Below, in pieces: positions 1-34,719 of a DNA stretch of 64,000 nucleotides. Each line of letters begins with the position of its first letter. Positions within the stretch are counted from its first letter, which is position 1. The translations under genes and the position numbers were made by a program. Source of the DNA: Lunularia cruciata (taxonomy: Eukaryota > Streptophyta > Marchantiopsida > Lunulariales > Lunulariaceae); NCBI GenBank assembly GCA_948567375.1, contig OX419760.1, positions 21,080,001 through 21,144,000 of the forward strand. The letters run 5' to 3'. A model generated the notes under the pieces. That model saw only the letters and a list, made by a program, of their open reading frames with translations, ran no database searches and was not told the origin of the DNA.

Positions 1-1755
1 ATCTCCTGGACCTGAATGATCTCAAAGAGGGACTGTGAGTTTGGCCCGCACTCCTAAGACATTGGAACTGATAACTATTTAAAGTACCGACTGTGACAGT
101 AATTCTGGGGACATGCTGCGAAGTCAGTAACGGCATCAAACAGCCTCACGGAGCAGGGAGGTAAGAATCCATGGTGTAAAAGTAGTGCCTGACCTGGCCT
201 GTCCATCTCCGTTTTGTGGATGTATTGTCGTAGGTCTGTCCACTTCCACCGAGTTCTCTTACAATCGTAATGGGAAAAGCAGAGTGAACATAAAGAGTTC
301 GATGCTTCACGTCTAGATAACTTTCATGACGTGGATACGTCATAGACGTGGATACTTTCACGTTTAACTACCGCAGTCCATCATCATCCAGGGCGGGTTG
401 TGCAGGCTACTGCTTACGATGTGTCGGACTTCGTGTAGCATTTCGCGCTTTAAACCCTGATTTTCTTCATCTAGGTGTCCATGGTGATGGCCTTGAACCT
501 CTAAATGCAGCAGCATGGTCATCACTTCTCTTTTACTTGGGACTGTGTCGGGATATTCTTCGATTGGTCTACCTTCAGGATCACGATGTCACAATGTCCG
601 TGTAGATTCTCTCTTTCTGACAACATTTTTGAGAAGTTTTAAGCCCCAAATCTATGTAAATTACTGAGGGGTGTGCGGAAAAGTCCCAAGTTTTATCACT
701 AAAGAAGTGAAACTACTCAAAATCACTCTGAATAGGTCTCATAACTTGCAACACGAAGCCATAGACTCAGCGCTCTTTAAAGTCCAGAGGAACTCTTCGG
801 CACTGGTAGTTCGAACCGTTTCGAGCTCATTCTAACGTCCTAGCTCGCATCATTTTGTCAAAGTGCTTTAGTTGCACTGATCAGTTTTACACTGAGCATG
901 TGCCTTTTGTAAACTCTTAAGCACTTGAGAGGATTGTGAGTTGATCTTTCAAACGTCATTACCGATGGTTCAATCGAGAGAAAACCGAAAGTACTGGAGG
1001 ATCAACGCAAGATGGAAAGCAGTGGATTCTGCAGTAAGGACCAGGTATCCCTCTCGACGTGATTCGGTTTCTCAGGGGACGAGATATATATCGGTCCATG
1101 TATTTGAGACCTGCACCTGATAAACACTCTGAAGGATTTTCTGGATCTGTCGTTCGTATTCAGCAGTGTTCAAAAGTGCGTGTCCCGCCTGCATTAACTG
1201 GAGGCATCATAAGCTGTACTATATCGTAAGCCCCTCGGACCCAAACTGAACAGAGGTCCGTCCCCTTTGCTGTAGTTCATGTCCGTATCCGCGGTATATT
1301 AACTGAAGGGTTGTCCACTAGACCAAACCTGGAATGTTGACGCTTTGGTTCCTCTCGCATTTCAAGAAAGTTGCAAAGTGAAAGTTGAAATCAATTTGCA
1401 AACGAAAATGAGTACTCTTTTGGGGTACACATCGACTGCTTCCATACATATCAGGATTTATATCTTGATCGAAACATATCTAGTGACAACTGATTACAAG
1501 CGTTGCTTTGAGCGAGTTTATAACTTTAGTCTCAAACAAACACATGATGTCGAAGTTGCACTCGTGTCTTAACTTAAAGTTCGGAAGGATTTATGCACAT
1601 GTTCTCAAGCATATGAGATGACCTTGGGAACTGCAATACTACTACCTCGGTATCGAGGATATGAAACACAATTCAAAATAAAACTTGTTTTGTCCAGAGC
1701 TGTAGCTCGTTATCTCAATCCCAGGGCATTTCAAGAGGAAAGAAGATCAGTTGCT
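1..1755. other. no recognisable gene; unassigned left edge
   Basis: I see no convincing coding region or repeat here. Short open frames exist on both strands (for example 348-605 on plus, 85 codons), but their translations match no family I know and show no motif. Composition is more balanced than the AT-rich DNA that follows, so part may be old single-copy or heavily decayed repeat DNA. Confidence 0.4.
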
Positions 1756-5452: not shown

Positions 5453-5718
5453 TTCTCGCTTTTAAGATGCAACGTACTCATTGTGAAGTTGTTGCTCCAA
5501 GATTTCACTAACACTGGTGCATGGGTCAAGTTGGCTATTGGCTCTTATGTCACCTCATACAAAGGGTAATCTTTCCACTATATAAAATATTCCACACACG
5601 GATAGCAAGTACCACGGTTGCATTTATGGAAAATGCGTTCAAGTTTATATTCCACTGTTCCATCAATGAGTGTTGGACAAGGTCAAATGTTTTGGATAGA
5701 AGGAAAGTGAGGTAATCA
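5453..5718 (-). pseudogene. C-type pol 3' end with broken chromodomain (C3)
   Basis: Read on the minus strand, this gives a decayed version of the chromodomain seen at 34,733-34,915: CPTLIDGTVEYKLERIF, then a core around VEYFI and WKDYPLYEVT with stops inside, then EPIANLTHAPVLV. Chromodomains at the end of gypsy integrases are thought to steer integration towards marked chromatin. The stretch stops abruptly near 5,718, where plus-strand B-type gag begins, so everything upstream of the chromodomain is missing. Two in-frame stops in the domain rule out function. Confidence 0.7.
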
Positions 5719-5719
5719 G

Positions 5720-6549
5720 GAGGAATTACTTGGTCAATTTCAAACTATAAATGCCACCCGATCTGCATGAGATAAATTGGCAGAGTTGAAGCAGATTGGC
5801 TTTGTAAGGAGTTACATCACACAATTTTAGAACATCATCATGCAAATTCCATATATACAAGAAGGTGAAGTTCTGGATCAATTTGTGCAGGGATTGAAAG
5901 CACAAAACCAAATTGGAGATGACCATATGGGAACCACAAAACATAGAAGAAGCCATGCAATTTGTTGAGCGCTTTGATTCCTTGGTTGGGATAACTTGGT
6001 CTTGAACTCGATCTACACAAAGCCTACCAGTACACTACGCATGGGTGGAGGAACAAGCACCAATGGAGATTGATGCTATCCAACAAAGACCACTTGGTAC
6101 AATAGATAGAGAAAGATTACGAAAAAATAAAGGTTGTTTCTATGCAATGTCCACTCAAGAATGGGCGACCTTGACAAGTTGCCCATATGGAGTTTGTGAA
6201 ATAGAATGATCAAGGAAATGAGGAATCCCAATAAGAGATTTGGAGCCATCTACATGGAGCTTGATTAGTTCCAATGGGATTGAAGGCTTGACCTATGCAA
6301 GTTTGCTTCACTTGCAAGGTATGATATCTAATTGGGGTTGTAAGATTTTGGTTGATTCTGGAAGTTTAGAGAATTGCATGTCTATGAAACTAGCAAAGGA
6401 ATTGGGTATTCCTATCAAGCCAATAATTAGAAGTAGATTGATGATAGCAGATGGTAGAAATGGTTTTGCATTTCTGTACCTCACATCCTATTACTTTAAG
6501 ATTGGGAAGGAGTATTTGGAGTGTATGAGGTTTGTAGTGACACCTCTAC
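5720..6549 (+). pseudogene. B-type gag-protease fragment (B3)
   Basis: This runs parallel to the B2 gag-protease region (about 7,545-8,400) and to B1 on the minus strand. Recognisable pieces are KLAELKQIGFVRSYI, an NIIMQIPYIQEGEVLDQF segment with one stop, the linker at 6,060-6,240, and a protease with the active-site stretch [17 protein letters not shown] (D-S-G). The reading frame changes several times, and the zinc-knuckle region is largely deleted around 6,130-6,160. Homology stops inside the protease at 6,549, exactly where the B2 5' LTR begins, after the residues FVVTPL. It is a relic of a third B-family copy. Confidence 0.75.
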
Positions 6550-6902
6550 TATAACAATGTGGAGTTTAGCGACGAAGTTAGTCGGGCTTACAAAGTAGCA
6601 CATAAGACAAATTAGCCTAGAATATTCCAAAAGTATCTAGGAAGCTTCTTGGGAAGCTTCCTGGCTAGCTTAGCTTGCACCTCAAGTAAATAGCTTCTAG
6701 AAGCTTCCAATTAGCTTAGCTTGCACACCAAGTAGGCAACTTCTAGAAGGAAGCTTCTTGAGAAGCTTCTCAAGGGCCTTGTATGCTACCTATAAATACC
6801 AAAGCCAAAGCTCATGCTAGGCATTTGGAGTTTTCCCTCATTCAAGTGTCCCAATGTGAGCTTTCATTCTCCTATTTCTCTCCTCGGATTTGGTCTTTTA
6901 CA
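6550..6902 (+). repeat. B2 5' LTR with heat-shock-element-like arrays
   Basis: It starts TATAACAATGTGGAG (the 3' LTR has TGTAACAATATGGAG) and ends GGTCTTTTACA. U3 contains repeated GAAGCTTC palindromes at 6,641, 6,653, 6,750 and 6,762, a GAATATTC at 6,620 and a perfect TTC-nn-GAA-nn-TTC triplet at 6,695-6,707. A TATAAATA box follows at 6,791-6,798, placing transcription start shortly downstream. Relative to the 404-bp 3' LTR it lacks about 50 bp. The layout is that of a pol II promoter driving the element RNA. Confidence 0.9.
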
Positions 6903-6916
6903 TTGGTATTAGAGCA
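6903..6916 (+). other. B2 primer-binding site
   Basis: TTGGTATTAGAGCA follows the LTR end directly. It differs by one base from the common plant retroelement site TGGTATCAGAGC, which pairs with the 3' end of initiator tRNA-Met and primes minus-strand DNA synthesis. Confidence 0.85.
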
Positions 6917-7173
6917 AGAATGGGATGGATGGAATTTATGGACCACCAAATCCACTTCCACCAAACCATTGGGATTTTTGCATCCAAATACTACCAAAGC
7001 ATCATTTCACACAATTCATCACCTCACACTTTGGACAAGACTTTCCACATATGATCACCATATTTGAGGAACCCTTGGTACTTCTGGTTGTAACTTATGG
7101 AGAATGGTGGACGTGTTGTTTCTATGTGTTAATAAATTAGATAGATTGGGAGTGGTGTGATAGAGTAGCAACC

Positions 7174-8085
7174 ATGGCGGTAATACCCAATGTTATCCTT
7201 GCTATGCAACAACAAATCAAGCACCTTACTCAATTGTTGGATGAACAAGATCTTTGACAATAAGAGCAAGTAGAGAGAGTACTGATTTGAGAAGGAGAAG
7301 ATTGGATTAGATTCCCTAAACCCAAGGTATTTGAAGGCAAGAATCTTTTGGGTGTTGTGGAGAATTTTTTGTTTGATTGTGAATGTTATTTTGAAGCTAG
7401 CAATCTACAAGACGAGCAAAAATAGATTCTATTGGCTTCTAGCCAAATGGATGGAGTAGCAAAGCTATGGTGGAATTCCAAGTAGAGCAAGCGGAATGAC
7501 AAATTGTTGCACCAATCTTGACATGGGCAGAATTCAAGAGCGCAATAATTAGTCGGTTCTAAGCTATAAATGCCACACAAGTTGCACGGGATAAGTTGGC
7601 AGAGTTGAAACAGATTGGCTCCGTAAGAAGTTACATTACGCAGTTCCAAAACACCATCATGCAAATTCCAGATATATTGGAAGGTGAAGCTCTGGATCAA
7701 TTTGTGAGGGGCTTGAAGGCAAGAACCAAATTAGAGGTAACCATGCAAGAGCCACAACACTTGGAGGAAGCCATGCGATTGGCCAAAAGTTTTGATTCCT
7801 TGGTGGCAACAACTTGGTCTGGACCTTGACCTCCACATAGCCTACCAATACACTATACACAAGTGGATGAGCCAGCATCCATGGAGATTGATGCCATTCA
7901 ACAAAGACCACTTGGCATAGTAGATAGAGAGAAATTGCAACAAAATGGTGGTGGTTTTTATTGTTGCCAATTGGTGCATTGCATTGATGAATGTCCACTC
8001 AAGAATGGACGACCTCGACAAGTTGCCCAAGTGGAAGTCATGGAGCGGAATGATCAGGGAAATGAGGAATCCTAGTAGGAGATTT
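7174..8085 (+). pseudogene. B2 gag, with stops and frameshifts
   Basis: The start ATG at 7,174 opens MAVIPNVILAMQQQIKHL, the same beginning as B1 gag on the minus strand. A capsid-like region follows with RFPKPKVFEGKNLLG, then KLAELKQIGSVRSYITQF and IPDILEGEALDQFVRG in a changed frame. The zinc knuckle near 7,955-8,000 reads FYCCQLVHCIDEC: the first cysteine of the C-X2-C-X4-H-X4-C pattern seen in B1 (CFYCRQVGHCIAEC) is gone. Stops lie at several places after codon 25. Gag would form the virus-like particle; this copy cannot encode it. Confidence 0.8.
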
Positions 8086-8550
8086 CGAGTCACCTACTGG
8101 GAGCTGATTAGTTCTAATGGGATTGAAGGCTCATATCATACCTATGCAAGTTTGCTTCACTTGCAAGGTATGATATCTAATCAGGGTTGTAGGATTTTGG
8201 TTGATTGTGGAAGTTTAGAGAATTGCATGTCTATGCAAGTAGCAAAGGAATTGGGTATTCCTATCAATCTAGTGATTGGAAGTAGTTTGATGATGGCGGA
8301 TGGTAGAAAGGGTTTTGCATTCTGCACCTCGCATCCTGTTACCTTCAAGATTGGGAAGGAGTATTTGGAGTGTATGAGGTTTGTAGTGGCACCTCTACAC
8401 TATGATATCATTCTGGATCTACCTTGGCTTGAACGTCATAAGGTTCAATTTGATTGGAACCGACGCCAAGTTCAAGTACAACACCAAGGTAGAAATTTCT
8501 GATTAGGTTGTCTAGCACCTCTGAGTAAGACACCTAAGAATAGTCAATCC
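8086..8550 (+). pseudogene. B2 aspartic protease region
   Basis: An open frame through 8,502 carries the retropepsin core CRILVDCGSLENCMSM and the later hydrophobic [15 protein letters not shown] block. The active-site triplet is D-C-G here, while B1 and B3 have D-S-G, so the copy is probably inactive. The protease would cut the gag-pol polyprotein. After GRNF the frame stops, and near 8,560 the sequence jumps straight to the middle of RT, a deletion relative to B1. Confidence 0.8.
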
Positions 8551-8555
8551 CAAGA

Positions 8556-9590
8556 CCGGTACTGTTTGTTCCAAAGAAGGATGGAGGACTTCATTTCTGT
8601 ATTGATTATCATGGGCTCAATAAGCAAACTGTGAAGAATGCATATCTCTTGCCTCGGATCGATGACTTGCTTGATCAACTAAGTGGAGCATGCTACTTTT
8701 CCAAGTTGGATCTTTGCAGTGGCTATTGGAAAATTCCCATTGAGAGAGAGGATGTGCAAAAGACTACCTTTCATACAAGGTATGGGCATTTTGAGTAGAG
8801 AGTTCTACCTTTCGGACTCACTAATGCTCCTCCAGTCTTCATGGATCAGATGCATCAAGTATTGGATGGACTATTGGATCGGTCCGTGGTGGTGTTCTTA
8901 GATGATATCTTAATTTATAGTAAGATAGAGGTAGAACACATGAATCATGTGCAAGAAGTCTTAAGACGACTATGACAATGGAAATTTTACTGCAAGAAGT
9001 CAAAGTGTGCCTTTTGGCAGAAGGAGGTTACCTTCTTGGGTCATAAAATCTCATCAGAGGAGATCAAGATGGAAGAAGAGAAGATCAAGGCCAGTACTGA
9101 TTGGCCTATCCCGAAGGATGCTACAGAAGTACGGGCATTCAATGGATTGGCCAACCTTTACCAACAATTCATCCATTATTATGCTCATGTGGCTGCACCA
9201 TTGACTGACCTCTTGGGAAAGAACTCGAGCTTCTAGTGGACCACCAAGCATGAAGAAGCATTCCAGAAGTTAAAGCATATTGTGTCTTCAAGACCCATTC
9301 TTCAACCATATGATCCTCAACTACCTTGTGTGGTTGATTTTGATGCTTCTAACTTTGCAATTGGAGCCGTGCTATAACAAGAATTCCCATATGGACTCCA
9401 TCCTATTGCCTTTGTGTCTTGCCAACTCAATACGGCTCAACAAAACTACTCTACTTGAGATCAAGAACAACTTGCAATGGTATACGCCACCAAGGTATGG
9501 AGGCATTACCTCTTGGGGAAACAAGTGATCATGCAAACTGATCACAAACCATTGTTGCAGACCTTACATTGGAACACATAGAGAGTCAAC
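8556..9590 (+). pseudogene. B2 reverse transcriptase-RNase H, N-terminus deleted
   Basis: It begins at [20 protein letters not shown], continues with [13 protein letters not shown], then after a TAG at 8,796-8,798 with [11 protein letters not shown] and the catalytic [12 protein letters not shown] (YxDD-type motif). The RNase H region follows: ASTDWPIPKDATEVRAFNGL, then DFDASNFAIGAVL and a QTDHKPLLQ block near 9,535-9,560. Several stops are scattered through it (8,974, 9,235 and about 9,375). RT copies the RNA and RNase H removes it. Residues before the first conserved RT block are lost with the upstream deletion. Confidence 0.85.
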
Positions 9591-9594
9591 ATCA

Positions 9595-10850
9595 TCGATG
9601 GGAGGAACAACTCCAACTGTATGATATCAAACTTGAGTACAAACCAGGTCGGTTCCATGTCATTCCTGATACTTTATCAGGACGACCTAATTTGAAGTCT
9701 CTTCCTCTCATCACAACAACAATTTCAATGGTGTCAGTTGACTCCAAGGTCCAAAACGAGTTTCAGTCAGCTTTACACCAAGATCTCTTCTTCCAAATGA
9801 TACATGATCACCTTACGGCATGCAATAAGGAGTACAACACCTTCTCTATCAAGGAAGGCCTTTTATTCCACGAGGACTAGATCTATGTTCCAGCTAAAGG
9901 TGATCTTTGACTTGTGTGCCTTCAAGAAACCCATGATTTACCCATCACGGGTCACATGGGTGAGGACAAGAACTTGAGTACCCTCCAATGTCAATGGTGG
10001 TGGCCCAACATGATACAAGATGTTTGAGAATTTGTCCGATTGTGTGAGAGCTGCCAACGTAACAAGGCCAACAACCAGAAGCCAAGTGGACTCCTTCAAC
10101 CACTTGCCATTCCATCCGCTTGCTAGGAGCATGTGAGCTTGGATCTCATCACATTCTTGCCAAAGACAAAACAAGGACAAACCACAATCATGGTGTTTGT
10201 GGATAAGCTTAGTAAGAAAATCCACTTGGCACCAACCTATAATACCATGGATGCCCCAACCTTAGCACAAATCTACTTCAACAATGTCTTCAAGCATCAT
10301 GGGATGCCACGTGTAATCATCTTTGACCGTGATCCTTGATTTACCGGGAAGTTTTGGCAAGCACTCTTCCAAATACTTGACACCAAGCTTGCTTTGTCCA
10401 TGGCCTATCATCCTCAAACTAATGGAAAAACCAAATGTGCAAATCGTACATTGGAGGATATGTTGCATGCCTTTGTCAATGTCCACCATACCAATTGGGA
10501 TGAATGTCTTGCTGCTGCAAAATTTGCCTACAACAATTCAAAACAGTCAAACACCGGATTTCCTCCTTTCTTTCTCAATTTTGGCCAAGATCCGCTTGTT
10601 CTAGATTCTCTTCTTGCTCCTTATCCATCTTAGATTCCTCATACTTCTACATTCTTGACCACTATATCCCAATCTCCCCAACAAGCCAAGTCTCACCTCC
10701 TTGTTGCTCAAACCGCCAAAAAAATTATGCAAACCACCATCGTTGTGATCTCACCTTTGAAATTGGTGATAAAGTCATGTTATCCTCTAGTAACCTCCCT
10801 CTCCCAATTGATACCCAAGTTTGTAAACTTGCCCTAATTGGATAGGACCC
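9595..10850 (+). pseudogene. B2 integrase (H2C2 zinc finger and core)
   Basis: The HHCC finger region reads HDLPITGHMGEDK through CESCQRNKANNQ (9,930-10,075). The catalytic core holds SLDLITFLPKTKQG (first Asp) and IFDRDP (second Asp). An in-frame TGA follows at 10,337-10,339. The glutamate expected 35 residues after the second Asp is a lysine (codon 10,433-10,435, within NGKTKCANRTLED). B1 has the same stop and the same lysine, so the defect is shared. Integrase would insert the cDNA into chromosomes. The C-terminal part ([16 protein letters not shown]) is recognisable in a shifted frame. Confidence 0.85.
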
Positions 10851-10959
10851 TTTGATATCACCCAAATTGTCTCTCCTATTGCTTATAGACTTGCCTTACC
10901 TTGTCACATGCATATCCATCCTATCTTTCATGTTTCCAAGTTGAAACCCTTTGTTCCTA

Positions 10960-11215
10960 ACCCATGTTCCTTTTCCTCTCGAGTCCAACCTTCCACTCTT
11001 CTTGTCCCTATAAATGATCATGAGGAGTACAAAGTTGATTGTATCCTCACACGTTGCCATATTCAACAAAGCCATCGCCAACATACAGAGTACAAGGTCC
11101 TTTGGAAAGGGTATCCCCTTCATGATGCTATATAGGAACCTCTTTCTCACCTTCAGAATGCACAAATAGCCATCTAGGAATTTGAAGCTTCACTGGCAAT
11201 GAGGATATCACCAAC
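10960..11215 (+). pseudogene. B2 chromodomain
   Basis: The integrase tail carries YKVDCILTRCHIQQSHR, TEYKVLWKGYPLHDAI, a stop, then EPLSHLQNAQ. The WKGY and W/EP landmarks are those of chromodomains, which bind methylated histone tails in chromoviruses. The tryptophan expected just before EP is replaced by the stop (TAG at about 11,132). The B1 copy is open through this point. Confidence 0.8.
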
Positions 11216-11231
11216 TAGCGACAAGGGAATA

Positions 11232-11635
11232 TGTAACAATATGGAGTTTAGTGACAATGTTAGTCGGGCTTACGAAGTAGCACATAAGACAAATTAGCCT
11301 AGAATATTCCAAAATTATCTAGGAAGCTTCTTGGGAAGCTTCTTGGGTAGCTTAGCTTACATTGGAAGCTTCTAGAAGCTTCCAACTAGCTTAGCTTGCA
11401 CGCCAAGTAGACAACTTCTAGAAGGAAGCTTCTTGAGAAGCTTCCTAGTTAACTTGGCTTGCACTATAAGAAAGCGGCTTGAGGAAGCTTCTTGAGAAGC
11501 TTCTCAAGGGCCTTGTATGCTACCTATAAATACCAAAGCCAAAGCTCATGCTAGGCATTCATAGTTTTCCTTCATTCAAGTGTCCCAATGTGAGCTTCCA
11601 TTCTCCTATTTCTCTCCTTGGATTTGGTCTTTTAC
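11232..11635 (+). repeat. B2 3' LTR
   Basis: TGTAACAATATGGAG to GGTCTTTTACA, 404 bp. The purine-rich GACAAGGGAATA just upstream is the likely plus-strand primer. It contains a perfect 20-bp palindrome GGAAGCTTCTAGAAGCTTCC (11,364-11,383), that is four alternating GAA/TTC pentamers, further GAAGCTTC units, and a TATAAATA box near 11,525. Sequence to the right (aaggctc...) is the integrase of element D. Confidence 0.9.
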
Positions 11636-11639
11636 AAAG

Positions 11640-18555: not shown

Positions 18556-19179
18556 TGTTGTGCTTATATACATCACTACACAACATACATCATTGTCAAT
18601 ATCATACACAATAAAATCACAACTCACACATAAGTCAGATCAAATCGTTTACAACTCAAATCAGATCAATACTTGATCTGATCCTCAATAACTTGCAAAC
18701 AATTGTGCACTGATTACAGTCAAGCCACACCCATTCTAGCTAAGAGATTCCAGGTGACGCTCACCGGCTTTCTATCCACTCTAGCTAGGAACTCGAAGGC
18801 TCAACATCAGAGAAGTGAGCTCTCTAGAGCTGCACTTCCAGGGTATACTCTTTATTTTGACCTAGGTCTCATCCCAACGGTCCTGCTGATAGCACACTCG
18901 GTGGCACAAACGGTGCAAGTGACAATGGGTCCCACCATGAAGTCAGTACCCTAAACACAAAATTTGACCATCGGAAAGTAGTCTATGAGTAACTGCCAAA
19001 ATGCCTCTAACTACTAACACTGGAACTCCAATGTCCAAGCAATCTAGATGTGACACTACAAATGGCATGATAGTTGTCGTGTGTATATACATTGCTACAC
19101 GACTTACATCATTGTTAAAATTATACACAATAGAAGCACAACTCACACACAAGTCATACATAAACTCTAAAGTGCCACA
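18556..19179 (-). repeat. A 3' LTR, or TRIM-like unit, with terminal direct repeats
   Basis: A 624-bp unit starting TGTTGTGC and ending GTGCCACA on the plus strand (TG...CA in minus sense). Its first about 85 bp (18,556-18,640) and last about 100 bp (19,078-19,179) resemble each other: both carry atatacat, ctacac, catcattg and cacaactcaca in order. It sits directly beside the purine tract 19,180-19,193, as a 3' LTR should. Terminal direct repeats within an LTR are odd, so a TRIM-like element is the alternative. The central part recurs at 1,760, 45,710 and 46,490. Confidence 0.6.
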
Positions 19180-19193
19180 ATTGCCCTCCTAGT
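19180..19193 (-). other. A polypurine tract
   Basis: Minus-strand AACTAGGAGGGCAAT immediately precedes the TGTGGCAC start of the repeat. It is the expected position and composition for the plus-strand primer of an LTR element. Confidence 0.55.
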
Positions 19194-23941: not shown

Positions 23942-23946
23942 CCAAA
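23942..23946. other. target-site duplication of B1, left copy
   Basis: CCAAA directly before the TG of the left B1 LTR; the same five bases occur at 29,256-29,260 directly after the CA of the right LTR. Confidence 0.9.
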
Positions 23947-24337
23947 TGTAAAAGACCAAAACCGAGGAGAGAAATAGGAGAATAAAAACTCACATTGGGA
24001 CACTTGAATGAGGGAAAACTCCAAATGCCTAGCATGAGCTTCGGCCTTGGTATTTATAGGTAGCATACAAGACTCTTGAAGCTTCTCAAGAAGCTTCCTT
24101 GAGCCACTTTCTTGGAGTGCAAGCCAAGTTAACTAGGAAGCTTCTCAAGAAGCTTCCTTCTAGAAGCCGCCTACTTGGCGTGCAAGCTAAGCTAGTTAGA
24201 AGCTTCTAGAAGCTTCCTTCTAGAAGCTACCTGCTTAGGGCGCAAGTTAGATGCTTCTAGAATATTCTAGGCTATTTTGTCTTATTCTCTACTTTGTAAG
24301 CCCGACTAACTTCATCTCTAAACTCCATATTGTTACA
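23947..24337 (-). repeat. B1 3' LTR
   Basis: 391 bp, TGTAAAAGACC to TTGTTACA on plus (TGTAACA...TTTTACA in minus sense). It has a perfect tetrameric GAA-nn-TTC array at 24,199-24,216 and a TTC-nn-GAA-nn-TTC triplet at 24,255-24,267. The TATA box is TATAAATA on minus (24,051-24,058). Next to it on the right lies a G-rich polypurine tract (GGTGGGGGAATA on minus, 24,338-24,349). Confidence 0.93.
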
Positions 24338-24359
24338 TATTCCCCCACCGCGAGTTGGT

Positions 24360-24565
24360 GACGTCCTTGTCACCAGTAAAGCTTCAAAGTCCTTGATGGC
24401 CCTCTGTGCATTCTGGAGGTGAGAAAGAGGTTCCCATGTGGCATCATGAAGAGGATACCCTTTCCAAAGGACCTTGTACTCCGTATGTTGGCGATGGCCT
24501 CGTTGAATATGGCAACGTGCAAGGATACAATCAACTTCGTACTCCTCATGATCATTGATAGGGAT
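24360..24565 (-). CDS. B1 chromodomain (open)
   Basis: Minus-strand frame: YEVDCILARCHIQRGHRQ, TEYKVLWKGYPLHDATWEP, LSHLQNAQRAIKDFEALL. All chromodomain landmarks are present, including WKGY and TWEP, where B2 has a stop. It is the C-terminus of the pol polyprotein and runs on to the purine tract. In chromoviruses this domain binds methylated histone H3 and biases integration. Confidence 0.8.
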
Positions 24566-24586
24566 AGGAAGAGGGGGAGGTTGGAC

Positions 24587-25700
24587 TCAAGAGGAAAAGG
24601 AAGAAGGGTTAGGAACAAAGGGTTTTAACTTGGAAACATGAAAGACAGGATGGATACGCATGTGACAAGGTAAGGCAAGTTGATAAGCAATAAGAGAGAT
24701 AATGTGGGTGATTTCAAAGGGTCCTATCCAATTAGGAGCAAGTTTATGAACTTGGGTATCAAGTGGGAGAGGGAGGTTACTAGAAGATAGCATGACTTTA
24801 TCACCAACTTCAAAGGTGAGATCACAACGATGATGGTCCGCATATTGTTTTTGGTGATTCTAAGCAACAAGGAGGTGAGATTTGGCTTGTTGGATAGATT
24901 GGGATATAGTGGTCAAGAATGTAGAAGTATGAGGAACCTGAGAGGAAGGAGGAGCAAGAAGAGAATCTAGAACAAGCGGATCTTGGCCAAAATTGAGAAA
25001 GAAGGGAGAAAATCCAGTGCTTGCCTATTTGGAATTGTTGTGGGCAAATTCTGCAGCTGTAAGACATTCATCCCAGTTGGTATGGTGGACATTGACAAAG
25101 GCCTACAACATATCCTCCAATGTATGATTGGCACGTTTGGTTTGTCCATCAGTTTGAGGATGATAGGCCGTGGATAAAGCAAGTTTGGTGCCAAGTATCT
25201 GGAAGAGTGCTTGCCAAAACTTCCCGGTAAATCAAGGATTTCGGTCAGAGATGAGTACACGTAGCATCCCATGATGCTTGAAGACATTGTCAAAGTAGAT
25301 TTGCACTAAGGTTGGAGCATCCATGATATCACAGGTTGGTGCCAAATGGATTTGCTTACTAAGCTTATCCACAAACACCACAATTGCGGTGTGTCCTTGT
25401 TTTGTCTTTGGCAAGGATGTGATTAGATCCAAGCTCACATGCTCCCAACAAGCGAATGGAATGGCGAGTGGTTGAAGGAGTCCACTCGGCTTTTGGTTGA
25501 TGGCCTTGTTCTGTTAGCAACTTTCACATGATCAAACAAAGTCTTGAACATCTTGTGTCATGTTGGGCCACCACCATTGGCGTTGGAGGGTGCCTAAGGT
25601 CTTGTCCACTCCCATGTGACCAGCTATTGGTAAATCATGGGCTTCTTGAAGGCACACAAGTTGAAGATCACCTTTGGCTGGAACATAGATCTGATCTGCA
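24587..25700 (-). pseudogene. B1 integrase
   Basis: HHCC finger (HDLPIAGHMGVDK... in the frame ending near 25,532), then SLDLITSLPKTKQGHTAIVV (first Asp), KHHGMLRVLISDRNP (second Asp), a TGA at 25,232-25,234, [32 protein letters not shown], and the C-terminal [16 protein letters not shown]. The residue 35 positions after the second Asp is Lys (codon 25,136-25,138) instead of the catalytic Glu. The same stop and Lys occur in B2. The N-terminal half up to the stop is open. Confidence 0.85.
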
Positions 25701-25704
25701 TGGA

Positions 25705-26260
25705 ATAAAAGGCCTTCCTTGAAAGAGAAGGTGTTGTACTCCTTGTCGCGTGCTGTCAGATGACCGTGTACCATTTGGAAGAAGGGATCCTGTTGTAGAG
25801 CTGATTGAAACTCATTATGGACCTTAGGGTCAATGGACACCGTTGTAATTGCTGCCGTGATGAGAGGAAGATCCTTCAAATCAGGTCGTCGTGATAGAGC
25901 ATCGGGGATGACATAGAACTGACCTAGTTTGTACTCAAGTTTGATGTCAAACAATTGGAGTTGCTCTTCCCATCGATGATGCCGACTCTTCATGTGCTCC
26001 AAGTGTAAGGTCTACAACAATGGTTTGTGATCAGTTCGCATGATCACTTGTTTCCCCAAGAGATAATGCCTCCATACCTTGGTGGCATATACCATTGCAA
26101 GTTGTTCCTGATCTTAAGCAGAGTAATTTCTTTCAGCTGTATTTAGTCGGCGAGACACAAAAGCAATAGGATGTAGTCCATCTGGAAATTCTTGTTGCAA
26201 CACAACTCCAATTGCAAAGTTAGAAGCATCAAAATCAACCACACAATGTAGTTGAGGATC
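25705..26260 (-). pseudogene. B1 RNase H C-terminus and pre-integrase spacer
   Basis: The frame 26,002-25,532 begins at MKSRHHRWEEQLQLFDIKLE and YKLGQFYVIPDALSRRPDL, the typical end of gypsy RNase H (the aDaLSR motif), followed by a spacer of about 80 residues leading into the HHCC finger. The catalytic start DFDASNFAIGVVL lies near 26,230 in another frame. A TAA-type interruption near 26,115 separates the pieces. Confidence 0.75.
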
Positions 26261-27261
26261 ATATGGTTGAAGAATAGGTCTTGAGACACCATATGCTTTA
26301 ACTTCTGGAATGCTTCTTCATGCTCGGTGGTCCACTGGAAGCTTGAGTTCTTTCCTAAGAGGACAGTCAATGGTGCAGCTACATGAGCATAATAGTGGAT
26401 GAACCGTTGGTAAAAACTGGCCAATCCATTGAATGCTCGTACTTTTGTAGCATCCTTCGAGGTTGGCCAATCAATAATGGCCTTGATCTTCTCTTCTTCT
26501 ATCTTGATCCACTCTGATGAGATCTTATGATCCAAGAAGGTAACCTTCTTCTGCCAAAAAGCACACTTTGACTTCTTGCAGTAAAATTTCCATTGTCGTA
26601 GTTGTCTTAGGACTTCTCGCACATGATTCCTATGTTCTGCCTTTGTCCTACTATAGATTCAGATATCATCTAAGAACACTACCACGGACTGATCCAATAG
26701 TCCCTCCAACACCCGATGCATCTGATCCATGAAGACTGCTAGAGCATTAGTGAGTCCGAATGGTAGAACTCTCTACTCAAAATGTCCATACCTTGTGCAA
26801 AAGGCAGTCTTTTGCACGTCCTCTCCTTCAATAGGAATTTGCCAATAGCCACTACGAAGATCCAACTTGGAAAAGTAGCATGCTCCACTTAATTGGTCAA
26901 GCAAGTTGTCGATCCGAGGAAAGGGATATGCATTCTTCACGGTTTGCTTATTAAGCCCATGGTAATCAATACAAAAACAAAGTCCTCCATCCTTCTTTGG
27001 AACAAATAGTACCGGTGCTCCCCACGGAGAGGTACTATGTCGTATGAAATCCTTCTCCAACAACTCTGTAAGTGTTGTTCGCAACTCCTCCAACTCCTTT
27101 GGTGAGAGCCGATAGATTGGTCTACTCATTGGAGTACTCCCTGGCAATAACTCAATCTTGAAGGGCATACCTCGATCAGAGGGTAATCCCTTTGGCAGAT
27201 CATTTGGAAACACATCTGTAAACTCCTGAACTATCCAATCAACCATTGCTTGATGCGGCAC
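26143..27261 (-). pseudogene. B1 reverse transcriptase
   Basis: Open from 27,261 to 26,773 ([77 protein letters not shown]), then TAG in the middle of the palm at the same site as in B2, then [19 protein letters not shown] with catalytic aspartates kept, and a thumb/connection open from 26,622 to 26,143 (KFYCKKSKCAFWQKKVTFL, AFNGLASFYQRFIHYYAHV). Only two stops break an otherwise full RT, so B1 is among the better preserved copies. Confidence 0.88.
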
Positions 27262-27900
27262 TTGGCCCTCCTCAGATTGTTCTTATGCAATCGGCTTGAT
27301 CCACACCGCGAATACAGACTTATCTTCCTCCAAACTTGCTCTATGGCTACTTCATTAACAAACTTCCCTTCTAGGAACTCATCTCTCTTCCAAGCTTGCT
27401 CCATGGTTGCCTTCTTGGCAAACTTCCCATCTTGGGACTCAACTCCCTTCCAGATTTGCTCTATGGCTACCTTCTCAACAAACTTCCTATCTTGGGACTG
27501 ACTATTTTTAGGTGTCTTACTCAGAGGTGCCAGACAACCTAATCGGAAATTCCTACCTTGGTGTTGTACTTGAATTTGACGTTGGGTCCAATCGAATTGA
27601 ACCTTATGACGTTCAAGCCAAGGTAGACCCAGAATGATATCATAGTGTAGAGGTGCCACTACAAACCTCATACACTCCAAATACTCCTTCCCAATCTTGA
27701 AGGTAACAGGATGCGAGGTGCGGAATGCAAAACCTTTTCTACTATCCGCCATCATCAAACTACTTCCAATCACTGGCTTGATAGGATTACCCAATTCCTT
27801 TGCTACTTGCATAGATATGCAATTCTCTAAACTTCCAGAATCGACCAAAATCCTACAACCCCGATTAGATATTGTACCTTGCAAGCAAACTTGCATAGGT
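27231..27900 (-). CDS. B1 aspartic protease (open, 221 codons)
   Basis: The minus-strand frame is open through the whole domain: [18 protein letters not shown] with the canonical D-S-G triplet, [53 protein letters not shown] (second hydrophobic motif), then a linker with three imperfect repeats of about 20 residues ([42 protein letters not shown]). The protease matures the particle. The repeats are unusual for a linker and are missing from B2 through its deletion. Confidence 0.82.
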
Positions 27901-27904
27901 CAAG

Positions 27905-28869
27905 CCTTCAATCCCATTGGAACTAATCAAGCTCCCAATAGGCGGCTCAAAATCTCCTACGGGGATTCTTTGTTTCCTTGATCATTCTGTTCCACAAACT
28001 CCATCTGGGCAACTTGTTGAGGTCGCCCATTCCTAAGTGGACATTCAGCAATGCAATGTCCAACTTGGCGACAATAAAAGCAACCTCTATTTTGTCATAA
28101 TCTTTCTCTATCTGTTGTGCCAAGTGGTCTTCGTTGGATAGCATCAATCTCCATTGGTACCGGTTCTTCCACTCGTGGTAATGGTAGGTTTTGTGTAGGT
28201 CAAGGTCGAGACCAAGTTGTTGCAACTAAGGAATCAAAACGCTCAGCCAATTGCATGGCTTCTTCTATGTTCTGTGGATCTTGCATGGTTACCTCCAATC
28301 TGGTTTGTGACTTCAATCCTCGCACAAATCGATCCAGAACTTCACCTTCTTGGATATCTGGAATTCAAATGATGATATTCTGAAATTGTATGATGTAGTT
28401 TCTCATTGAGCCAATCTGCCTCAACTCCGCCAATTTATCTTGTGCAGCTCGGGTGGCATTTATAGTCTAAAATCGACCAAGTATTGCATCCTTGAATTCT
28501 GCCCGTCAAAATTGGTATAACAATTTGTCGTTCAGCTCTTTCTACTTGGAATCGCCACCAAAGTTTTGCCATGCCATCCAATTAGCTAGAAGCTAAGAGA
28601 ATTGTTTCCGCTCGTCTTGAAGATTGGTGGCTTCAAAGTAACGTTCACAGTTAAACACAAAATTCTCCACTGTGCTTGGAAGATTCTTGCCTTCAAACAC
28701 CTTGGGTTTTGGAAATCAAATGCAATCTTCTCCGTCTCAAACTGGCACTCTGTCTATCTGTTCTCGTCGTTGCTGGTCTCGTTCATCCAACAATCGAGTA
28801 AGATGCTCAATTTGTTGTTGCATTGCAAGGATAACATCTGGTATTGCCGCCATTGCTACTACTCTATTC
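27905..28869 (-). pseudogene. B1 gag
   Basis: It starts at about 28,853 with MAAIPDVILAMQQQIEHL and RLLDERDQQRREQID, followed by a TGA, FPKPKVFEGKNLPSTVENF, capsid words KLAELRQIGSMRNYIIQF, IPDIQEGEVLDRFVRGL and EVTMQDPQNIEEAMQ, then the zinc knuckle CFYCRQVGHCIAEC (C-X2-C-X4-H-X4-C, intact) at about 28,040-28,085. Several stops and at least one shift separate the pieces. Gag packages the RNA. Confidence 0.85.
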
Positions 28870-28953
28870 CACTACCCTCAATTTATCTAGTTGATTAACA
28901 CATAGATACAACACTACCCTCAATTTATCTAGTTGATTAACACATAGATACAA
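28870..28953. repeat. 42-bp tandem duplication at the truncated B1 LTR
   Basis: The unit beginning cactaccctcaatttatcta occurs twice head to tail (28,870-28,911 and 28,912-28,953), identical by eye. It comes from the B1 leader, just inside the point where the 5' LTR is cut off. Confidence 0.9.
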
Positions 28954-28957
28954 CACG

Positions 28958-29255
28958 TCAAGAAGCTTCCTTGAGCCGCTTTCTTGGAGTGCAAGCCAAG
29001 TTAACTAGGAAGCTTCTCAAGAAGCTTCCTTCTAGAAGCCGCCTACTTGGCATGCAAGCTAAGCTAGTTAGAAGCTTCTAGAAGCTTCCTTCTAGAAGCT
29101 TCCTTCTAGAAGCTACCTACTTAGGGCGCAAGTTAACTAGTTGGGAAGCTTCCCAAGAAGCTTCTTAGATGCTTCTAGAATATTCTAGGCTATTTTGTCT
29201 TATTCTCTACTTCGTAAGCCCGACTAACTTTATCTCTAAACTCCATATTGTTACA
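28958..29255 (-). repeat. B1 5' LTR, inner end deleted
   Basis: It corresponds to the outer three quarters of the 3' LTR and ends ATTGTTACA at the CCAAA duplication. It has one extra cttctagaagcttc unit and an extra segment near 29,128-29,165 relative to the 3' LTR. The part equivalent to about 23,947-24,085, including the TATA box and U5, and the adjoining priming site are missing. The tetrameric GAA/TTC array is at 29,071-29,088. Confidence 0.9.
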
Positions 29256-30033
29256 CCAAATCCAAGTGATCTCTTCTAGTATTGGAGTATCCTCTGCATG
29301 GGTGTTCCCTTCCAACAAGTCACCAGGCCAAGTAACTGCACCACTAAAAGCTAAAACTGATGCGGCCATGGTCCAGGACTGTAGTGAGCCAAGACTACCA
29401 CTAATGAAGCATACTGGAAGCAACATACCCGTCCCTCACCAGACTACCAACCTAGTCTATAGGAGGTTATCTCCTCCCAATAGTCAATATTGAAACCCAT
29501 GGGTATAACACTACTCCCCCAACTAGCACATCATATGACTCAGCTATTGTCTCAATAACATGAGCTCTCACCACCGAGCTATCAATCGGATGACCAGGCT
29601 GAACTTGGACAACAAGCTCCTCACGTGTGATGTACTATGTCAAACCACCACCAAGAGATGTTTGGATTTGAAATGGACACCTCTACACATCAATCTTCCG
29701 TAACTCCAAACCGACTATTGTAGCCTTCTCCAACATAAGGGGCTATGCACCAAAGTCTAACAAGACTCTCTATGGTGTACAAACCTTCCTTAAAGGTCCC
29801 ACCAAACGGAAAATCCCCCTCTAGTTATCAAATAGGACAACACCAGGTGTGAACCGTGCTCTCTCAAAGGCCGGTCTAGCTGGCAACTCCTCTAGTCTAG
29901 TCGTTGCTACCTGCCATAAACCACTGGTCGTTGAATGGATCTCATGCTCCTCAACCAAGTCAGCTCCACTATCAACCACCTTTGCTCTAGTAGTAGGGAC
30001 TGCATCATCCCTACTCTCATAAAGCGTGAAAGC
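29256..30033 (-). pseudogene. A protease and linker, left of C1
   Basis: Reading leftwards from 30,033: LVEEHEIHSTTSGLWQVA, RPAFERARFTPGVVLF, GIFRLVGPLRKVCTP, then RVLLDFGA and, after a stop, PLMLEKATIVGLELRKIDV and CPFQIQTSLGG. This is a retropepsin active-site region, but the triplet is D-F-G in place of D-[ST]-G. Later words are GHPIDSSVVRAHVIE and YDVLVGGVVLYPW. The frame continues across the B1 insertion (ITWIW...). The protease is inactive through stops and the Phe. Confidence 0.7.
30029..30033. other. target-site duplication of C1, left copy
   Basis: AAAGC directly before the C1 left LTR; the same five bases stand at 42,905-42,909 directly after its right LTR. Confidence 0.88.
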
Positions 30034-30764
30034 TATTATACTCCAATGACAAGAGAAGAGAGAAAACATAGATTACACACTTAACATTCAGTGTCCCAAA
30101 GGAGCATCTTTTCTTTATTATATAGACAAAGAGGATTCCCTCCAAGGAAGCTCCACCATAGGATTAGGCACACAAATCAGTGACATGTCAGCAAGCTTCA
30201 CCCTTGAATTACTTACTTGGATGGGTGACATGTCGTTCTAGTCTTATTTGGTTGGTCAAACAAGCTTTGACTAGAGGGAATCTTTTAGGGAATCTTCTTG
30301 TAAGAGTCTCAAAATCATGTAAGGTACCATTGGAAAGCTCTCAACAAGACAAACCAAAGGGGAGGGAAGGCCTAACTTTCCTTAATCAGGAGGCAATGTG
30401 CACATTTTCAAGGCCTAATTCATTCGTTTAGGTCTCCAAAATTACCTTCAAAGATTTCAGGCATATTTTGGTTCCTACTCTATTAGTAGAAGTCCCTTTT
30501 TGGTGATACTTCTTTTTGATCTGTTTAGTCCATCATGTGTAACATCCTTCCGGATTTTACCAAACCAATTCTCTCCTTTAAATCATATGTCTAGCTATTG
30601 GTTCTAAAGTTCTCAAGTCTATTTTGCTTTTTGCTCTATTAGTAGAAGTACTCTTTTGGTGATACTTCTATCTGATTTATTTTGACCATCATGTATAACA
30701 TGATTCTAGATGTTACCAAACCAAATTTCACATCTAGATCATATGGCTAGTTCTTGGTATTACA
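30034..30764 (-). repeat. C1 3' LTR
   Basis: Plus-strand ends TATTATACTCC (mutated from TGTAATACTCC) and TTGGTATTACA. It contains two copies of a roughly 150-bp unit at about 30,457-30,602 and 30,613-30,760, each with ctattagtagaagt, ttttggtgatac, ccatcatgt and ttaccaaacc in order. The TATA-type word tattatatag lies near 30,115. Confidence 0.93.
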
Positions 30765-30960
30765 AACCTCCCTCCTTTTAAGACGCAACGTCCTCATTGT
30801 GCAATTGTTGCTCAAATGCTTGCACCAACACTAGTGCATGTGTCAAATTGGCAGCAGGCTCCCATGTTGCTTCATAGAGGAGGTAACCTTTCCACTATAT
30901 TAGATAGTCCACCCGCGGATGGCAAGTACCACGCATGTGCTTTTGGAGAATACGCTCCAC
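30765..30960 (-). pseudogene. C1 purine tract and broken chromodomain
   Basis: The tract AAAAGGAGGGAGGTT (minus) occupies 30,765-30,779. Upstream, the minus strand reads ILQKHMRGTCHPRVDYLI, a stop where C2 has Gln, then WKGYLLYEATWEP and ANLTHALVLVQAFEQQLHN. It is the chromodomain end of integrase with one visible nonsense codon. Confidence 0.8.
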
Positions 30961-30999
30961 TTCATATTCCTCTATGCCATCAATGAGTGTCGGACAAGG

Positions 31000-32320
31000 T
31001 CAAATGTCTTGTCTGGAATGACCCTAGCTTGATTGGGGAGCATATCTGCATAGTAGGGAAACATGGAACATTGGATGGATCTTCATGTGTGGTGGCAGCT
31101 CAAGGTGATAGACCACAGCGCAGACATGACAAAGAATTGAGAAAGGCCCAATAAAACAAGGTCTAAGCTTACAAGGTCCAACTAATGTGAGGTTGTTTGT
31201 TGATAGCCACACTTGATCCCCCCACCATTGAACTCCATGTGCCTACGGTGTGCATTAGCATACTGCTTCTGTCAATTTTGTGCAATTTGTAATCTATGTT
31301 TGGTGCTCTATACATCTTGTTGGATTTTAGAGACAAATGTGTTGACTATATTGACCTTGGTAGCCATTGGCCGGATCTTCATCAAGCTAGAAGGTGTGAA
31401 GGGATGCTCACCATACATGAGGAAGAATGGAGTGCCCTGGGTAGATGCATTCACTGAATTGTTGTAAGCAAATTCCACCAACAGGAGTAGGGTGTCTCGT
31501 CTCTCTTGCTCTTCTAAGGTGAAGCCGCGTAACATGTCTTCAATCGTGCAATTAGCCTGCTCTGTTTGGCCATCTGTTTGTGTGGGTAGTAAGCTATGGA
31601 TATGGCTAACTTGGTTTTGAAGAAACCAAAGAGTGTTTGCCAAAACAAACTGGTGAATTGAGTGCCTTTATTGGTGATAAGTACTCTAGACAAGCCATGG
31701 TGAGAGAAGACTGCATCTAAGTATAATTGAACTAGTTGTGGAACGGTCACATCCTTGGTGGTAGGGCATACATGAATCATTTTGCTGAGCCAGTCCATAG
31801 AGACCACGATGGAGTCAAACCTGAGGTGGTCTTGGGTAATTCACAAACAAGATCCATACTCACTTATTCTCCACGTTAGGGAGGCGTGGAGAGAGGTTGA
31901 AGGAGCCCTACAAGAGCTTGATTAGAAGCTTTGTTTTGTTGACAAAGTAGGCAGCTACGCACATAGTCCATCATGTCGTTGCTCATCTTGGGCCGATAGT
32001 AATGGCACTAGACTGCATCCAAGGTCTTGTCCACTCCAACATGACCTGCAATGGCCAAATCATGACATTCCGCTAGAATGGTGGTGCATAATTTTGGGAC
32101 ATTTGGGATCTATAATCTGCCATTATGAAAGGTGAGTCCTTGGGTGTTGGTGACGCCTTTAGATGATTGCACTTCTACAATCTGCAGATTAGTTTTTGTA
32201 GCAGCCAGAATCTTTGGCCAAAATCCAAGGTTAATATTAACTTCTGCCACCAAGTTGTTTGCCATTAGCATGCAGGTGAATGCATCTGCAAGTTGCTTCT
32301 TACCTTCCACGTAGTTGATT
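31000..32320 (-). pseudogene. C1 integrase
   Basis: HHCC finger segment near 32,090-31,930, catalytic core from 31,807 (MVSMDWLSKMIHVCPTTKDV, AVFSHHGLSRVLITNKGTQF: the second Asp of TDRG is changed in TNKG), then a frame change through the region of the catalytic Glu (31,643-31,308 continues with NCTIEDMLRGFTLEEQERRD and LLVEFAYNNSVNAS), and a C-terminal piece KIHPMFHVSLLCRYAPQ at 31,024-31,212. Stops and shifts separate the pieces. It is colinear with the better C2 copy at 34,733-36,223. Confidence 0.85.
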
Positions 32321-32487
32321 TACTTATTGAAGCGTTGTCGCTACTCTGCCCACCAAATTTGGCGACGAGATAGATCCTTCTGCATCTCAAGGTAGACTAG
32401 AGGTTTGTGGTCTATCTCTACTACAAATGCCTTCTCGCCTTGATAATGCTTCCAATGCTTGGTTGCCAGAACAATGGCCAGCTCTTC

Positions 32488-33640
32488 TCATTCTGTGGTG
32501 TGGTAGTTGGGCTTTGCCAATAACAACTTTTGAGAGAAATATGCAATTGGATGCCATCCGTCATGCCACTCTTGTTTTAGTACTGCTCTTATTGCTATGC
32601 TTGATGCATCTATAGCCAACTTGATTGGTCGTTTTGGGTCATACTTCTTCAAGATTGGTGCATGTAGCAAGGTGACTTTCAATTGTTGAAAGGCCAACTC
32701 TTGTGCGGTTCCCCATGACCACTTCTTCCCCTTGCCAAGTAGTGCCATTAAAGGTTGTGCAACCTTCAAGAAGTCCTTGAAAAATCTACAATAGAATCCC
32801 ATCAACCCCAAGAAGCTCTTGAGTTGAGTCTGATCTTCTAAGGCACGCCATTTTTTAATGACCTCTATTTTATTTGTCAATACTTGAATGCCCTTTGCAC
32901 TTATTCTATGCCCCAAGTAGTTTACTTCAAACTTGCCAAACTCGCACTTTGAGATTTTGGCATACAATTGATTATGTCTTAGAATTTGGAGGACCTCTTG
33001 TAGATGTTGTTTGTGTTCCATCATTATGCTCTTGTATACTAAGATATCATCCAAGAAGACAATAACAAACTTATCCAAGTATGGATGAAATATGTCATTC
33101 ATTAGACTCATGAAAGTGGCAGGTGCATTGTTGAGGCCAAAAGGCATCACAAGATACTCAAAGTGGCCATACTTGGTTCGAAAGGCAGTTTTGTACACAA
33201 CCTCCTCTGCAATTTGGATTTGATTATAACCGCTCTACAAGTCCAATTTTGTGAAGTATCTTGTTCCATGGAGTTGATCAAACAGGTCATCTATGCAAGG
33301 TAAGGGGTATTTTTTCTTCACTATTTGATGATTGAGACCTTGATAGTCAATGCACATGCGCATTGTACCATCCTTCTTCTTCACAAAACAAGACATGAGC
33401 TCCATATAGTAATACGCTAGGTTGGATGAACCCCTTCTGCAGCATCTCCTCAATTTGAGTCTTACACTCCTCTAACTCATGAAGTGATAGGCGATATAGG
33501 ACCTTACAAGGAGGTGTCTTATCCGAGAGTGTCTCAATTTTATGATCTACTCTCCTTTTTGGTGGTAATCTTAAGAGTAGATCATCGGGAAAGACATCTT
33601 GAAATTCATCTACCATAGCCTTCAATTTCTCAAGAACTTG
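32488..33640 (-). pseudogene. C1 reverse transcriptase-RNase H
   Basis: The main open frame (33,198-32,488, 236 residues) holds [31 protein letters not shown] with an intact DD pair, [50 protein letters not shown] and [18 protein letters not shown]. The N-terminal palm lies at 33,453-33,235 ([33 protein letters not shown]), and the region before it at 33,625-33,347. Three frames are needed, and a stop sits near 33,235. RT copies the RNA into DNA; the catalytic part is well kept. Confidence 0.88.
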
Positions 33641-33965
33641 TCATCAAGTTGTGCACTCTAGACTTATCTTATTAGACCCATGAAACATCTATCGGTCTTA
33701 TAGACAATTGCCATCTCCATAACATATAGAGGCAGATCTTGCTAGGGTGAATTTTCTTTAACCCCAATGATTGGCCATTGGTGGGTTCTCACTACTTTCT
33801 TCCTCCAATCTACCATAGGGTTGTAATGCTCCATCAATGCCATGCCTAAGATTGCATCATAACAAGCTAATTATATCACTCGCAACTCAATTGCTTCTTG
33901 ATATTCTCCTACATAGAGTGTTACCCATATAGGTAATGATTCAATCCTCTCGTTTGCCCATTAGG
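33641..33965 (-). pseudogene. C1 protease, distal part, cut by C2
   Basis: The minus-strand translation covers the end of the protease and the RT-proximal linker, with residues equivalent to the C2 words RRVTLSVGEYQEAIEWR and ARYDAILGMPWMEQYN, several altered. Homology continues directly at 40,241 on the other side of C2. The last five bases (TTAGG, 33,961-33,965) are the target-site duplication. Confidence 0.8.
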
Positions 33966-34719
33966 TGAAATACTCCAAGGACAAGAGAAGAGAGAAAACA
34001 CAGATTGCACACTCAAACATTCGATGCCCCAAGGGAGCACCTTCTCTTTATTATATAGACAAAGAGGATCTCCTCCAAGGAAGCTCCACCATAGGATTAA
34101 GGACACAGATAGGTGACATGTCAGCAAGCTCCACCCTTGGATTACTTACTTGGATGGGTGACCTGTCTGGTCTAGGTCCTATCTGGTCTAGGTTCTATCT
34201 GGTTGGTCAAACAAGCTTTGACCGAAGGGAATCTTTTAGGGAATCTTCCTATAGGAATCTCAAAATCACGTGAGTAAGGTACCGTCGGAAAGCTCTCGAT
34301 GAGACAAAGTAGGGAGGAGGGAACGCCAACCTATCCTATATTGGGGGGGAATTTGCACATTTTCAAGGCCTAATTCATCCGTTTAGGCCTCCAAAATTAC
34401 CTTCAAAGATTTCAGGCATATTTCGGTTCCTACTCTCTTAGTAGAAGTCCCCTTTTGGTGATACCTCTTTCTGATCTGCTTAGTCCATCATGTGTAACAT
34501 CCTTCCAGATGTTACCAAACCAATTCTCTCCTTTAAATCATATGTCTAGCTATTGGTTCTAAAGTTCTCAAGTCTATTTTGGTTTTTGCTCTATTTGTAG
34601 AAGTACTCTTTTGGTGATACTTCTATCTGATTTATTTTGACCATCATGTATAACATGATTCTAGAAGTTACCAAACCAAATTTCACATCTAGATCATATG
34701 GCTAACCCTTGATATTACA
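33966..34719 (-). repeat. C2 3' LTR
   Basis: 754 bp, TGAAATACTCC to TTGATATTACA on plus. It carries the same internal roughly 150-bp tandem duplication as C1, plus a short local repeat ctaggtcctatctggtctaggt near 34,171-34,195. The purine tract (GGAGGGAGGTC on minus) follows at 34,720-34,734. Confidence 0.92.

Follow-up and report, generated by a model that had tools for sequence, protein, structure and literature searches.

The U3 of B, a Ty3/gypsy chromovirus family with two partly preserved copies in the 64,000-nucleotide stretch of DNA analysed here (the window), is probably a promoter driven by heat-shock factors (HSFs) and induced by heat; its sequence suggests that it resembles the ONSEN promoter, that it was acquired independently, that its units switch rapidly and that its GAA/TTC triplets are held by selection. 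Under heat or another HSF-activating stress, host HSF trimers would bind the U3 sites, and the bound HSFs would drive transcription of genomic RNA from U3, so that copies with intact heat shock elements (HSEs) may be expected to leave more descendants. From the pattern of sites we infer both HSFs as the binding proteins and heat as the trigger. The best-studied heat-responsive long terminal repeats (LTRs) belong to low-copy copia families; if the reading given here is true, a large chromovirus family whose thousands of LTRs bear near-ideal HSEs, and with it thousands of potential heat-responsive promoters, would be tied to the heat shock response.

B elements and their HSE arrays

The two copies in the window, B1 on the forward and B2 on the reverse strand, are both degenerate, with short and broken open frames (Table 1). 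B LTRs start with TGTAACA (TATAACA in the B1 5' LTR) and end with TTTTACA, and the primer binding site (PBS) TGGTATTAGAGC that follows the B1 5' LTR is presumably of the initiator Met-tRNA type. Pfam matches in B2 run in the order gag-like piece, protease, reverse transcriptase, integrase zinc-binding domain, SH3_Tf2-1 and chromodomain, which is the Ty3 order; the Ty3-type capsid/gag piece is below the cut-off in B2 and above it in B1, the B1 chromodomain is partial and below the cut-off, and neither RNase H nor the integrase core gave a Pfam match in the submitted pieces of B1 and B2. A chromodomain is the mark of chromoviruses, and the B family is a Ty3/gypsy chromovirus. A copia origin is ruled out by the Ty3 domain order and the chromodomain, and membership of the ONSEN family (Ty1/copia COPIA78) was rejected because B does not have the copia domain order. 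The sequence-only reading had likened the B LTRs to those of the heat-activated copia element ONSEN, a likeness that holds for the HSF-type sites and fails for the superfamily.

Table 1. Positions of B-family features in the window
Feature	Position	Strand	Remarks
B1 5' LTR	6550..6902	+	353 bp; starts TATAACA not TGTAACA; ends TTTTACA
2-unit HSE GAATATTC	6620..6627	+	B1 5' LTR
Two GAAGCTTC octamers, 12-bp pitch	6641..6660	+	2-unit HSEs, mutually out of HSE register
3P HSE TTCTAGAAGCTTC	6695..6707	+	B1 5' LTR
TTCTAGAA and two GAAGCTTC octamers	6741..6769	+	Adjoin TATA box of B1 5' LTR
TATAAATA box	6791..6798	+	B1 5' LTR
B1 internal region	6903..11231	+	B family; frames broken
Primer binding site TGGTATTAGAGC	6904..6915	+	After B1 5' LTR
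B1 3' LTR	11232..11636	+	405 bp; TATA box 11525-11532
4P HSE GAAGCTTCTAGAAGCTTC	11365..11382	+	B1 3' LTR
Target-site duplication TTTGG (- strand reading)	23942..23946		3' side of B2
B2 3' LTR	23947..24337	-	391 bp; TATA box 24051-24058
4P HSE	24199..24216	-	B2 3' LTR
3P HSE GAATATTCTAGAA	24255..24267	-	B2 3' LTR
B2 internal region	24338..28957	-	Frames broken
Chromodomain	24338..24586	-	PF00385, E 2.4e-14, B2
B2 5' LTR	28958..29255	-	Truncated; without TATA box, R, U5, PBS
4P and 3P HSE, starts 14 bp apart	29071..29102	-	Extra 14-bp cassette copy, B2 5' LTR
3P HSE GAATATTCTAGAA	29173..29185	-	B2 5' LTR
Target-site duplication TTTGG (- strand reading)	29256..29260		5' side of B2

Comparison of the B1 flanks gave no matching target-site duplication (TSD), and a gag-protease fragment of the B family (5718-6549) abuts the B1 5' LTR; the two observations together suggest recombination between elements. 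The promoter of the B2 5' LTR is presumably dead, because its TATA box, R, U5 and PBS are missing.

The alternating GAA/TTC pattern of HSF sites that had been read from the letters of the B LTRs is confirmed, in the form of sites with 3 or 4 adjacent inverted nGAAn units (3P and 4P). Both 3-unit arrays and all three 4-unit arrays that had been cited are present (Table 1; the 4P of the B2 5' LTR occupies 29071-29088), and two further 3-unit arrays that had escaped listing lie in the B2 5' LTR (29090-29102 and 29173-29185). Three of the four window LTRs thus have a 4P site and the B1 5' LTR has a 3P. The arrays had also been placed upstream of a TATAAATA box throughout, which is correct for three LTRs and wrong for that at 28958-29255, which is cut before the TATA box. 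The U3 as a whole is a row of ~47-62 bp sub-repeats, each led by pairs of the octamer GAAGCTTC, and the commonest spacings between octamer starts are 12, 50, 47 and 10 bp (80 sampled LTRs). The nearest block of at least two units lies a median of 19 bp before an exact TATAAATA (range 19-80, 88 LTRs), and the 4P sites stand farther upstream, at a median distance of 140 bp (55 sites, range 81-202). The 4P sequence GAAGCTTCTAGAAGCTTC is the core of an oligonucleotide used for HSE pull-down (PMC8492855) and of a yeast HSE reporter (PMC4214751).

Chains of at least three units number seven in the 1,447 bp of B LTR in the window, against one in the other 62,553 bp. For all four U3s, none of 5,000 dinucleotide shuffles produced as many chains of at least two units as the natural sequence has, and the length of the longest chain had P values of 0 to 0.002. 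The pairing of units is therefore far beyond what shuffles give, whereas the result is weaker against the background expected from simple expansion of GAAGCTTC, the other control proposed in the sequence-only reading: random placement of a fixed number of octamers gave a 4-unit array with P 0.12 to 0.27 (12-27% of placements). Against the same null, the B2 LTRs alone have an elevated count of arrays of at least three units (P 0.022 and 0.002; 0.195 and 0.358 in the B1 LTRs). Since random octamers so often give a 4P, its 10-bp register is not significant alone, and the window by itself cannot show that HSE phasing matters. The lone 3-unit HSE outside the B LTRs (46940-46952) stands beside one copy of a dispersed, partly inverted repeat (18556-19181, 45708-46143, 46485-46924 and 1771-2145).

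Across the genome (566 Mb in 74 contigs), perfect 4P sites number 7,083 versus 117 for the reversed pattern, and the exact 18-mer GAAGCTTCTAGAAGCTTC has 5,213 copies versus 0 for its reversed pattern. An LTR anchor free of HSEs has 2,148 genomic sites, and a pattern joining LTR end and PBS has 3,214. We sampled 99 loci, which cover 100 of the 2,148 anchor sites and all lie on contig C1; 97 of these 99 LTRs reach 3P or more and 61 reach 4P or more, the corresponding values for a sample of 30 loci drawn with the LTR-end + PBS pattern (at least four of them also among the 99) being 25 and 12. Thus 2 of the 99 and 5 of the 30 are without even a 3P. Twenty 4P sites, 13 of them picked for unusual linkers, were examined and all 20 lie in B-type LTRs. 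Among the 4P sites L001-L004, L001 is a weaker relative, L002 has no match, and L003 and L004 are an LTR pair that was also sampled as L055 and L056. The L001 sequence (1293-1524, reverse strand), distantly related to the B LTR at 63 bits, has an alternating GAA/TTC array of 5 units; the linkers of this array are unlike those of B, and a TATA-like ATAAATA lies downstream of it on the same strand. The genome encodes HSF DNA-binding domains, with at least two matches over the cut-off, one of them with internal stops.

Unit turnover within single insertions

Under the standard replication scheme an insertion starts out with two identical LTRs. Mismatch between them is a countable readout of the rate at which promoter class changes. 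We collected 20 neighbouring same-strand LTR pairs in which both LTRs are complete (L106/L107 and L109/L110 were dropped for an incomplete LTR). The TSDs of these pairs match at five of five bases in 15 cases, at four of five in three and at none of five in two; 18 pairs were accordingly taken as single insertions because their TSDs are identical or nearly so, and L092/L093 and L126/L127, which have no TSD, were excluded. In 12 of the 18 TSD-confirmed insertions the two LTRs are separated by indels of at least 12 bp, that is, by whole units. Such indels number 14 in total, 13 of them within the array, in comparison with 7 short ones (1-3 bp) and 203 substitutions. A 14-bp cassette accounts for eight of the 14; seven of these eight are identical and the other carries a substitution. 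Each pair with this indel combines a 4P with a 3P LTR, and the remaining large indels are of 59 (twice), 64, 117, 12 and 18 bp.

Unit turnover is therefore fast enough to set apart the LTRs of a single insertion. The proposal in the sequence-only reading that units turn over by duplication stands as far as the change of units is concerned, and is refined in that the changes involve mainly defined cassettes of 14 bp and ~59 bp. The 4P status is discordant in 9 of the 18 pairs, versus 8.5 expected under random re-pairing, although the LTRs of a pair are more alike (K2P 0 to 0.062) than random copies are (median 0.088). Both pairs that differ by one substitution also differ by a unit and the sole substitution-free pair does not, and pairs with unit changes are not significantly older than the others (Mann-Whitney p 0.12).

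The 14-bp unit sits between 12-bp direct repeats within the palindromes, and because of these flanking repeats its gain and loss are most simply put down to slippage, either when the element is reverse transcribed or when it is replicated. Slippage of this kind between direct repeats, at reverse transcription or later, would then account for the unit changes. We consider it possible, though somewhat doubtful, that the U3 is a contingency-like promoter. In that case gain and loss of the 14-bp cassette, plausibly during reverse transcription, would be so frequent that both LTRs of every new insertion would receive their HSE class afresh and independently, 4P presumably being the strong and 3P the moderate class; hot and mild promoters would circulate together and the triplets would be held by selection.

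Apparent constraint on HSE triplets and rival explanations

A test for constraint on the triplets that used only the four window LTRs fell short of significance (p 0.08 to 0.19), and a genome sample was thus needed. The constraint set consists of 67 of the 99 loci, with one LTR per pair and only complete LTRs of 341-479 bp with a recognised start; the shared-variant counts refer to part of one contig and to copies with an intact 15-bp anchor. Singletons should mostly be neutral changes made after insertion, and shared variants should mostly have been inherited from transposing sources; comparison of the two offers a route to detecting selection on a transposon promoter within one genome. In the 67 insertions, shared variants are present in 1 of 69 HSE triplet columns, compared with 9 of 36 isolated GAA/TTC columns (p 2e-4), 46 of 201 other U3 columns (p 6e-6) and 3 of 26 two-base linker columns (p 0.06), and singletons per column are 0.52 for triplets, 0.58 for isolated GAA/TTC, 0.43 for other U3 and 0.31 for linkers. 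As low a score was obtained in 0 of 240 sets when the triplet labels were slid round the array, and the column labels are robust to the threshold. Restriction to 34 copies of a single length left shared variants in 0 of 69 triplet versus 9 of 36 isolated GAA/TTC columns (triplets versus linkers, p 0.019). Raw substitution rates are 0.013 for triplets, 0.052 for linkers and 0.068 for other array columns.

The near absence of shared variants from triplets at similar singleton rates looks like a mark of selection on source copies. In the 3P GAATATTCTAGAA the triplets are kept and the TA linker is changed, for example to CA or TG, in many copies; such conservation of triplets with linker variation fits what would be expected of HSF recognition of nGAAn units. 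Freedom of the linkers in general is weakly shown, since only 1 of the 16 linker columns inside GAAGCTTC octamers has a shared variant and the p values are 0.06 (67 insertions) and 0.019 (34 copies). A genome-wide tally of single-site variants of the 18-mer gave a different picture, with changes at one triplet G (701) not rarer than those at a linker G (583) and 107 in the triplet A class. Counting every copy lets in old decay and lumps both kinds of variant together; the tally adds no support for constraint.

The HSE matches could instead be incidental, the array being a by-product of tandem duplication of the palindromic GAAGCTTC in a promoter with another driver. Units are clearly gained and lost, a 4P arises readily when a fixed number of octamers is placed at random (above), and the tally over all copies shows no triplet effect; moreover, close octamer pairs have the 12-bp pitch in 158 cases and the HSE-phased 10-bp pitch in 42 (80 LTRs). 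We nevertheless regard such an origin as unlikely, since expansion alone leaves the scarcity of shared variants in HSE triplets, relative to both isolated GAA/TTC and other U3 columns, unexplained, and since GAATATTCTAGAA, which is no copy of GAAGCTTC, has a variable linker but preserved triplets. Palindromes might also be kept for structure, as stacked hairpins in the 3' U3 RNA (for stability, packaging or 3' end formation) or as DNA cruciforms. The two LTRs that were folded do lie far below their shuffles (z -6.85 and -5.46), and a 12-bp pitch between paired octamers leaves loops of 4 nt, but once the octamers were fixed at their positions the folding energy no longer stood out in three of the four window LTRs (fractions 0.70, 0.26, 0.01 and 0.135). 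Furthermore, in the 67 copies, 52 cells with a change in an octamer pair lose the pairing whereas 24 retain it, and only one of those 24 has a two-sided change. RNA hairpins as the constraint were rejected, since the octamers themselves explain the folding in three of four LTRs and compensation is lacking, and a structural role as a whole appears quite improbable.

The third alternative concerns the protein rather than the site: a class-B (repressor) HSF, or some other factor that recognises GAA/TTC palindromes, could bind the array, which would then mediate repression or respond to some stress besides heat. Sequence evidence is blind to HSF class, and LTR promoters use several stress factors, for example WRKY at EVADE (PMC12786077). 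On the other hand, strong heat induction accompanies 4P HREs, and moderate induction 3P HREs, in Brassicaceae COPIAs (PMC5059998), and the presence of 3P or 4P in most sampled B copies fits activation better. We judge a repressor or other factor very improbable, and an HSF-driven, heat-induced promoter remains the probable explanation of the B U3.

Relation to other LTR promoters

Repeated enhancer units of variable copy number are present in the U3s of other elements, such as the BII boxes of Tnt1, the 13-bp repeats of Tto1 and the 72-bp repeats of retroviruses. These tandem enhancers are like the B array in being built of repeated units and unlike it in the transcription factors involved.

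The closest parallel is with ONSEN (ATCOPIA78) of Arabidopsis, which shares with B the HSF-type sites in the LTR and the change of units between 4P and 3P. HSFA2 binds the ONSEN LTR and heat activation has been demonstrated (PMC3907296); the ONSEN 4P arose by duplication of a smaller HSE, and one copy went from 4P to 3P by loss of a motif (PMC5059998). ONSEN is, however, a Ty1/copia family with eight full-length copies in Col-0 (PMC5059998), whereas B is a chromovirus with thousands of LTRs, and B, unlike ONSEN, has several HSE blocks per LTR, the units of which switch. The ONSEN promoter is also without CG or CHG sites (PMC3907296), whereas the U3s of the 99 B loci have on average 5.6 CG and 1.47 CHG. 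The window LTRs have 4-6 CG and 0-2 CHG each, the four together holding 3 CHG versus ~49 expected, and the CG observed/expected ratio is 0.24-0.38 in B LTRs versus 0.42 for the window. With CHG nearly absent but CG present, B thus resembles ONSEN only partly in its methylation sites.

Independent gain of 3P/4P HREs, as proposed here for B, and often of a species-specific kind, has been described for the Brassicaceae families TERESTRA, COPIA37 and ROMANIAT5, in which the predicted HRE class largely matches the heat response (PMC5059998); these are COPIA families, and the parts of that report considered here describe no difference in HRE class within an insertion. The moso bamboo elements PHRE1 and PHRE2 (4,980 and 5,515 bp) are, like B, Ty3/gypsy elements, and their LTR activity has been studied in heat, but the main text of that report makes no mention of HSEs or heat shock elements (PMC8656106). 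Heat-responsive Ty3/gypsy elements of Cryptomeria are tabulated in a review (PMC9780303). In Cryptococcus, TCN12 and TCN3 are LTR retrotransposons with putative HSEs and with mobility raised at 37 °C; they differ from B in being fungal and in having one and two putative HSEs, respectively, and the sections of the paper that treat them describe no unit switching (PMC12810828). A literature search that reached mainly journals outside subscription found neither a chromovirus with HSE arrays nor an insertion described as having LTRs of unlike HSE class.

Two other features of the window deserve mention. A second Ty3-like family (A) occupies 30038-42913 and 62051-62565, with a 156-bp tandem sub-repeat in several copies, and these stretches contain no alternating GAA/TTC chain of three or more units. 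The open frame at 51418-51762 has an end that we take to resemble a nucleolar protein of the Sas10/Utp3 type.
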